In this document: positions 35,019 through 39,038 of the stretch, piece by piece
Layout of the letters: each line of letters begins with the position of its first letter
Numbering within the stretch: the first letter of the stretch is position 1
NCBI GenBank assembly: GCA_947624325.1
Contig: CANQJT010000005.1
Span: 1-64,000 of the forward strand
Direction of reading: 5' to 3'
Length of the DNA: 64,000 nucleotides
From: Candidatus Gastranaerophilales bacterium
GTDB taxonomy: Bacteria; Cyanobacteriota; Vampirovibrionia; Gastranaerophilales; Gastranaerophilaceae
The notes under the pieces: model-generated
Databases searched by the model: none
Told to the model about the DNA's origin: nothing
The model's input: the letters and a program-made list of their open reading frames with translations, nothing else
Translations under genes and position numbers: made by a program

Positions 35019-35957
35019 TTATTTTGTTATGCCTTTTAAATATTCTAAAAGCAACTTAATCTTTGTTGGATTATCTTCTATTTTAGATAATAATACATTA
35101 ACATCATTCTGCATTTTTGTTAATTCATCAGATTGTTTTAAATGTCCGTTATCATCTTTGACAAATGTTCTGTCAGATTTAACTATCCCGTTGTCTAAAG
35201 ATACATTACCGTAGTATACGGTTTTTATATTTCTGTCTTTATCAAAGAATACAATAGCGGTTCTTGCATTTTCTTCATCAGTCATAGGGCAAACCATAGA
35301 TTGCGGCTTATATCTGACAGATGAAAGAACTCCGTTTTTATATTTACAAGAGAACTCTTCTTTTGCTGAAAAATGATTTTTTACGATTAGAGAAGTTATT
35401 TTTCCGTTTTTAATTTCAGCATCACAATATGAATGATTATCATCTATATTCCAATCTCTTAACATGATTGACATTTTAGTATTATCGCCTCGAGTATCAA
35501 CATCAATCATTGACCATTGATTTCTCATTTCCATATCACAAGGAGGTGTTCCTGAGTATTTCATATTAAATCTTTTCGGATAAGGAATACCCTTATAATA
35601 TTGACGCAGTTCTATCGTAGGCTTTGAAGTTTCTTCTAAAGAATCCATAAGTATATATGCTACATTACTGTTAATATCTTTTAATTCCACTATTGAACTG
35701 TCTTGAGCATTCTTTTTCAAAAGCTTTTGGGCATTATTATAATATTCAAGTATTTTGGATTCAAATTCAGGAGTTATAAAATCTTCAATTTTTTTGGAAA
35801 TTTTTTCGGCATCATTTTCAAATGACTTAACCGATAAAGCGACTTTACCGAAAGAAACCGTATCAGTTTTCAAATTCTTACTCTTATATGGTATAGCACA
35901 CGGTTTTGCTATACGCATAATATTATTATTTATAACATTTACACCGGAAATCCTCAT
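35019..35957 (-). CDS. Hypothetical protein with N-terminal VSFGK motif
   Basis: A 312-residue protein I do not recognise. It has no signal peptide or transmembrane helix. The N terminus (MRISGVNVINNNIMRIAKP) is followed by TDTVSFGKVALS (31-42), which resembles the motif of the 9647 protein. Residues 50-100 are helical, and the rest appears beta-rich (MRNQWSMIDVDTRGDNTK, MSIMLRDWNIDD). AAGGATA precedes the ATG. It stands alone on the minus strand between a terminator and the activase-like gene. Confidence 0.7.
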   Translation of the reverse strand: MRISGVNVINNNIMRIAKPCAIPYKSKNLKTDTVSFGKVALSVKSFENDAEKISKKIEDFITPEFESKILEYYNNAQKLLKKNAQDSSIVELKDINSNVAYILMDSLEETSKPTIELRQYYKGIPYPKRFNMKYSGTPPCDMEMRNQWSMIDVDTRGDNTKMSIMLRDWNIDDNHSYCDAEIKNGKITSLIVKNHFSAKEEFSCKYKNGVLSSVRYKPQSMVCPMTDEENARTAIVFFDKDRNIKTVYYGNVSLDNGIVKSDRTFVKDDNGHLKQSDELTKMQNDVNVLLSKIEDNPTKIKLLLEYLKGITK

Positions 35958-38090: not shown

Positions 38091-38221
38091 TTCATAAAAA
38101 GCCCTCAATTCCAAATCTGCAATAGTAAAATCATTGTATAAAATAAGTTAAAAATCAAACATTATGGAAATTTACTTAACAAAAATATATTAAATAATTT
38201 TATGTTTTTTTAAGAAATGTT

Positions 38222-38249
38222 TTGAAATTTTTATATTTTGTAATATAAT
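38222..38249 (+). promoter_or_regulatory. Promoter of rpaB
   Basis: TTGAAA (38222-38227), 16-bp spacer, perfect TATAAT (38244-38249). A leader of about 35 nt carries GAGGA before the ATG. Confidence 0.75.
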
Positions 38250-38254
38250 GTAAA
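38237..38254 (-). promoter_or_regulatory. HLR1-like RpaB binding site overlapping the rpaB -10 box
   Basis: On the minus strand TTTACATT-AT-ATTACAAA. The cyanobacterial HLR1 consensus is (G/T)TTACA(T/A)(T/A), two free bases, then the same repeated. The first half matches 8/8 and the second 7/8 (A where G/T is expected). It covers TATAAT, a position from which RpaB would be expected to repress. Confidence 0.6.
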
Positions 38255-38291
38255 CAAAGGTAATATTATTTATATTGAGGATTTCTTAAAA

Positions 38292-39038
38292 ATGACTGAT
38301 AACAATGAAATACAAGAACAAGAATCACATCAAAAAATATTGGTAGCAGACGATGAAGCAAGTATAAGAAGAATACTTGAAGCACGTTTAAGTATGATTG
38401 GATACGAAATTATTACCGCAACAGATGGCGAAGAAGCAATTGCGGCTTTTAATAAACATAATCCTGATTTAATTGTACTGGATGTTATGATGCCAAAAGT
38501 TGACGGCTACGGTGTAGTTAGAGAAATCAGAAGAACCTCTGACGTCCCGATTATTATTCTTACTGCATTAGGTGATGTATCAGAAAGAATTACGGGACTT
38601 GAACTCGGCGCAGATGACTATGTTATTAAACCTTTCAGCCCGAAAGAACTTGAGGCAAGAGTTAAAGCTGTTTTAAGAAGGACAAATACAAAAGAAGTTT
38701 CCGCTCCGACCAGCAAAATAGCTAAAAACGTTATTACAACGGGTAATATAAGAATTGATACCGCAAGAAGACAGGTATTCAGAAAAAATGAAAGAATCAG
38801 ACTTACAGGTATGGAATTCAGCTTACTTGAATTATTGGTTAATAACTCAGGTCAAGCATATTCAAGAAATGAAATTCTGCAGCATGTTTGGTCTTATCCG
38901 CCGGATCACAGAATTGATACAAGAGTTGTTGATGTTCATATATCAAGACTTCGTTCAAAACTTGAAACAGACCCTGCTAACCCCGAATTAATACTTACTG
39001 CTCGCGGTATAGGTTATATGTTCCAAAGAATTTCTTAA
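38292..39038 (+). CDS. rpaB: OmpR-family response regulator, RpaB-like
   Basis: Two-domain DNA-binding regulator of 248 residues. Receiver domain at 14-130: acidic pair Asp20/Asp21, phosphoacceptor Asp64 (VLDVMMPKVDGYGV), Thr91, Lys113. A winged helix follows at about 145-248. The receiver (DDEASIRRILEARLSMIGYE, TALGDVSERITGLELGADDY) is strikingly like cyanobacterial RpaB/Ycf27, which controls high-light genes and is essential there. Since this organism has no visible photosynthesis genes, its targets must differ. It is followed by a strong terminator, so it is monocistronic; the kinase is not adjacent. Confidence 0.9.
   Translation: MTDNNEIQEQESHQKILVADDEASIRRILEARLSMIGYEIITATDGEEAIAAFNKHNPDLIVLDVMMPKVDGYGVVREIRRTSDVPIIILTALGDVSERITGLELGADDYVIKPFSPKELEARVKAVLRRTNTKEVSAPTSKIAKNVITTGNIRIDTARRQVFRKNERIRLTGMEFSLLELLVNNSGQAYSRNEILQHVWSYPPDHRIDTRVVDVHISRLRSKLETDPANPELILTARGIGYMFQRIS

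Follow-up and report, generated by a model that had tools for sequence, protein, structure and literature searches.

The closest described system is the cyanobacterial NblS-RpaB pair with its DNA element HLR1, KTTACAWW-N2-KTTACAWW, which can be read as tandem WWTGTAAM half-sites with a 10-bp period. In cyanobacteria the element activates when placed at about -45 to -66 and represses when placed at -38 to +23 (PMC13421787). RpaA, RpaB and NblS have already been published from Melainabacteria, and it was proposed as early as 2013 that these regulators predate light sensing and had a pre-photosynthetic role (PMC3787301, PMC4040986). That the lineage has the factor, and the idea of a pre-photosynthetic role for it, both raised in the earlier note, are therefore prior knowledge; what is new here is the HLR1 DNA code and a putative regulon in Gastranaerophilales, for which no earlier report was found in the open-access literature searched. 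A second comparable system is WalRK (YycFG) of Firmicutes, which likewise has an OmpR-family regulator and tandem TGTWAH-like half-sites. The WalRK site is a direct repeat with an N5 spacer, that is, an 11-bp period.

The window, meaning the whole 64-kb stretch of DNA that was analysed, comes from a Gastranaerophilales genome of 1.98 Mb in 20 contigs. The features of its rpaB locus are as follows.

38209 to 38218, plus strand: conserved block TTTAAGAAAT immediately ahead of the -35 hexamer, near-invariant in 30 aligned congeners.
38222 to 38227, plus strand: -35 hexamer TTGAAA of the rpaB promoter, with a TTTTGA core kept in congeners.
38233 to 38246, plus strand: element ATATTTTGTAATAT, which makes up the left portion of the HLR1-like site and is retained ahead of rpaB in most of the family's genera.
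38237 to 38254, minus strand: HLR1-like site matching 15 of 16 specified positions, with plus-strand half-sites TGTAAT (38239 to 38244) and TGTAAA (38249 to 38254).
38244 to 38249, plus strand: -10 hexamer TATAAT, inside the HLR1-like site and invariant in congeners.
38259 to 38264, plus strand: third half-site GGTAAT, in exact 10-bp register, from the congener alignment.
38292 to 39038, plus strand: rpaB ortholog, an OmpR-family response regulator of 248 aa (NCBIfam NF045944 equivalog).

The orthology of the gene to rpaB, as claimed in the earlier note, was upheld by an NCBIfam profile search in which the protein scored 363 bits against a cut-off of 330 for NF045944; the remaining equivalog models shown scored under their own cut-offs, including that for YycF (225 against 340), which sets the window protein apart from the WalRK system. 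At E<=1e-60, rpaB was found in 140 of the 146 genomes of the order. The recognition helix, DTRVVDVHISRLR, is the same as in cyanobacterial RpaB and is identical in 116/116 Gastranaerophilales RpaB proteins and in 31/33 other RpaB-type proteins. The window RpaB contains no cysteines, and the region of residue 76 reads GYGVV. Judging from the aligned proteins, most Gastranaerophilales RpaB have, unlike the cyanobacterial regulator, lost the conserved receiver-domain cysteine, the corresponding column being without C in 111 of 116. In Synechocystis this cysteine was reported to be dispensable for redox sensing, and it was hence not taken as a defining feature of RpaB (PMC13421787). Since it is missing from so many of these proteins, a redox role exerted through the receiver cysteine appears unlikely, which weakens the redox part of the older stress or redox role that had been suggested.

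The rpaB promoter is of the sigma-70 type and strong (TTGAAA-16-TATAAT, scoring 11/12). The minus strand from 38254 to 38237 reads TTTACATTATATTACAAA, with one mismatch to HLR1, KTTACAWWNNKTTACAWW, and overlaps the -10 box; the 15/16 sequence match reported in the earlier note was thus confirmed. The sole mismatch falls at T 38244. Because the -10 hexamer begins with this same base, completing HLR1 at this place would harm the promoter, and the HLR1-like site is partly forced by the -10. On the plus strand, the half-sites TGTAAT, TGTAAA and GGTAAT begin at 38239, 38249 and 38259, and in many congeners a fourth, TGTAAT, follows ten bases further on, where the window has a degenerate TTTATA (38269 to 38274). 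The HLR1-like site covers the -10 and, together with the third half-site, reaches beyond the transcription start predicted from the promoter. The upstream TTTAAGAAAT block could be an activator site or an UP-like element. An Rfam search of the window returned tRNA only.

As an isolated match, the rpaB site is no more than chance: the 64-kb window holds one 15/16 match where 1.06 are expected, and about 1.2% of shuffled 200-bp upstream regions (1.3 of 110) reach the same score. These counts are in keeping with an AT-rich genome that yields functionless HLR1-like sequence, as is the genome-wide search with up to two mismatches, which showed no enrichment (258+245 against 273+276 for the control) and means that only near-perfect sites are informative. 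Perfect sites, on the other hand, argue against chance. In pattern searches, on which all spacing counts rest, 12 of the 40 TGTAAM...WWTGTAAM pairs in the window's own genome were found at HLR1 spacing, with the other 28 spread over 14 other spacings (mean 2.0 each; Poisson P = 1.4e-6). Among 146 Gastranaerophilales genomes, perfect HLR1 occurred 2602 times in the 124 genomes of the family and 196 times in the 22 others. The corresponding counts were 404 and 29 at an 11-bp period, and 331 and 34 with the pattern reversed. The HLR1 arrangement is about 6.5 times commoner than the same half-sites at 11 bp, so that the period of the WalRK site is much the rarer of the two in this order. Perfect sites are also placed in promoters, as the genome scan proposed in the earlier note had sought, and they recur beside the same target families. 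Few class genomes from outside the order were available; these and several deep lineages of the phylum had almost no HLR1 matches, in counts uncorrected for base composition, which differs there. The HLR1 code is present across the order and very likely in use there, which supports the suggestion of a non-light role for the RpaB-HLR1 system. Chance as an explanation for the code as a whole is strongly disfavoured, also by the conservation of the site at rpaB, and we consider it very improbable.

Another OmpR-family regulator, for example an RpaA homolog, might read these sites instead of RpaB. RpaA too is encoded in Melainabacteria (PMC3787301), a first look at the genome gave about 20 candidate homologs, and RpaA or another OmpR-type regulator of this genome could share the half-site. 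Relatives of the WalR type use similar TGTWAH half-sites, at the 11-bp period. Both the half-site and the spacing match those of RpaB's HLR1, however, and the recognition helix is that of cyanobacterial RpaB. Photosynthetic cyanobacteria, in which RpaB is known to bind HLR1, served as a positive control and showed the same enrichment for the same pattern in the same test. A reader other than RpaB is accordingly improbable in our estimation, and RpaB is preferred as the protein that would bind the sites.

The location of the sites was examined with 60 perfect HLR1 sequences, nearly all from genomes of the window's genus. Fifty-three were intergenic, against 7 of 19 own-genome sites with other spacings (P = 2e-5). 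Unidirectional sites were oriented toward the gene in 30 cases and away from it in 11 (P = 0.004), and their distance to the start codon peaks at 80-100 bp. Recurrent families account for 57 of the 97 target sides, although the sampled genomes are related and these events are not independent. The recurrent families consist of uncharacterised genes, the largest starting with MGLAASQ(G/A)R. No credible match in Pfam or NCBIfam was obtained for ten own-genome targets, nor any match in Pfam or PDB for the MGLAASQ family, so the Gastranaerophilales targets differ from those of cyanobacteria in being lineage-specific genes without Pfam matches.

At 13 of the 97 target sides, most of them belonging to the MGLAASQ family, HLR1 is followed at a near-fixed distance by a promoter of the sigma-28 type (L005, with the sequence TAAAGTTTTTGATAAACAGTGCCGATAT, L346, L260, L276, L277, L281, L360 and L365 are such loci). 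The sigma-28 (FliA) consensus is TAAAGTTT-N11-GCCGATAA. The motif GYCGAYA lies no more than 70 nt downstream of HLR1 at these sides, in most cases 34-37 nt off and preceded by a TAAAG- or TTAAG-like sequence. It was seen in 0 of 161 control upstream regions, which were taken from around rpaB in related genomes, so that P values from this comparison are indicative. The arrangement suggests that RpaB and a sigma factor resembling FliA may act together at the 13 target sides. Two perfect HLR1 sites, at 1501 and 1540, are found next to genes from two recurrent target families in both L268 and L270, and in L268 the two genes are divergent; this pairing suggests that they may be controlled together. 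Many lineage proteins, several HLR1 targets among them, have in common an N-terminal stretch ending in a (V/S)SF(K/G)G-like sequence (for example the window gene at 35019 to 35957 on the minus strand, and targets in L285, L007 and L303), which is possibly a sorting or export signal.

Conservation at rpaB itself was compared within and beyond the genus. Among the 32 congener rpaB promoters listed, 29 keep the 15/16 match, and conservation extends outside the -10 to GTAAA and GGTAAT (30 sequences aligned, 27 unique). Within the genus, the zero-mismatch triple array TGTAAN5TGTAAN5KGTAA was found at rpaB only, among the matches listed. It is this conservation, together with the third in-register half-site and the genome-wide enrichment of the spacing, that makes the rpaB site significant. 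Another genus, g7, has TGTAAC-N4-TGTAAC-N4-TGTTAT on its own rpaB -10. Over 38 genera, pairs of half-sites upstream of rpaB were overrepresented at distances of 10, 20 and 30 bp but likewise at 5 and 9 bp, so that this comparison is no more than suggestive.

Beyond these, most other genera have no full HLR1 upstream of rpaB. What they retain is the left part alone, AATATTTTGTAATA, as a rule located behind another promoter. About half of the genera have AATATTTTGTAATA upstream of rpaB with a mean mismatch of 0-1 (0.2% of shuffles at 1 mismatch). This family-wide element (L020, L034, L040, L081 and others) mostly sits 55-80 nt ahead of rpaB and behind a CTTGCA...TTAATAT promoter, and a reading of it as HLR1 was rejected because outside the window's genus it holds a single half-site, TGTAAT. 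At 40 photosynthetic cyanobacterial rpaB upstream regions, with start codons assigned by a simple rule, there was no excess of HLR1 (2 matches scored at least 14/16, with about 1.5 expected), and none above 13/16 was seen among named Vampirovibrio, Obscuribacterales and picocyanobacterial rpaB upstream regions. With the site missing from most genera and no excess in photosynthetic relatives, autoregulation of rpaB would therefore be a lineage-level rather than an ancestral trait. The distribution of the site marks it as a feature of the genus, with at least one parallel, rather than an inherited autoregulatory element; the expectation of conservation in sister genomes held for the congeners and failed for most other genera and for photosynthetic cyanobacteria.

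The same observations allow for a real HLR1 regulon in which the rpaB match is a by-product of a conserved AT-rich promoter and the family-wide AATATTTTGTAATA, serving some other binder or a role in the 5′ leader, without autoregulation by RpaB. Such a reading draws on the retention of the left part without a second TGTAAM half-site in most genera, on its position behind a different promoter outside the genus, and on the chance level of the single match. It does not account as readily for the conservation within the genus of GTAAA and in-register GGTAAT, positions that are not part of the -10, nor for the g7 array, and the cross-genus pairs at 10, 20 and 30 bp also speak against it, as far as the further excess at 5 and 9 bp allows. 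We regard it as unlikely, though the most serious of the alternatives.

Preference is given instead to a model in which Gastranaerophilales use the RpaB-HLR1 code without photosynthesis and an array in rpaB's own promoter limits RpaB synthesis; we consider this model probable on the strength of sequence comparisons. From the sites computed here, their spacing, conservation and location, the recurrent targets and the identity of the recognition helix, we infer the binder (RpaB rather than a paralog), the sign of its action (activation or repression) and its phosphorylation by an NblS homolog. RpaB would bind tandem WWTGTAAM half-sites at 10-bp spacing. For most targets, the perfect HLR1 is located ahead of the core promoter, and RpaB would probably act there as an activator. 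The rpaB promoter of this genus carries an imperfect array of at least three half-sites over the -10 and the transcription start, where RpaB would probably block RNA polymerase and so limit its own synthesis. The cyanobacterial position rule, applied here, would have RpaB activate most targets and repress rpaB; the placement it links to repression was found at rpaB, with the site over the transcription start deduced from the promoter, and this position is what points to negative autoregulation.

The system thus resembles cyanobacterial NblS-RpaB/HLR1 in its orthologous regulator with an identical recognition helix, in the same perfect motif and 10-bp period, and in having placements of both types, over the start site (repression) and upstream (activation). 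It differs in that the published Melainabacteria genomes are without photosynthesis genes and in that, in the window's genus, rpaB itself bears a site.

Arguments about the origin of the cyanobacterial light-stress regulators have so far relied solely on which genes are present. Where a DNA code has been preserved and its targets can be listed, one protein and a set of promoters are enough for a test in vitro. It may be, although we hold this only tentatively, that the RpaB-HLR1 code predates oxygenic photosynthesis or is independent of it, that it controls lineage-specific and possibly surface or exported proteins in a non-photosynthetic gut order, partly with a sigma-28-type factor, and that cyanobacteria later added light genes to it. 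For the Gastranaerophilales, which are largely uncultured, the HLR1 code would provide a first regulatory handle on many uncharacterised genes.
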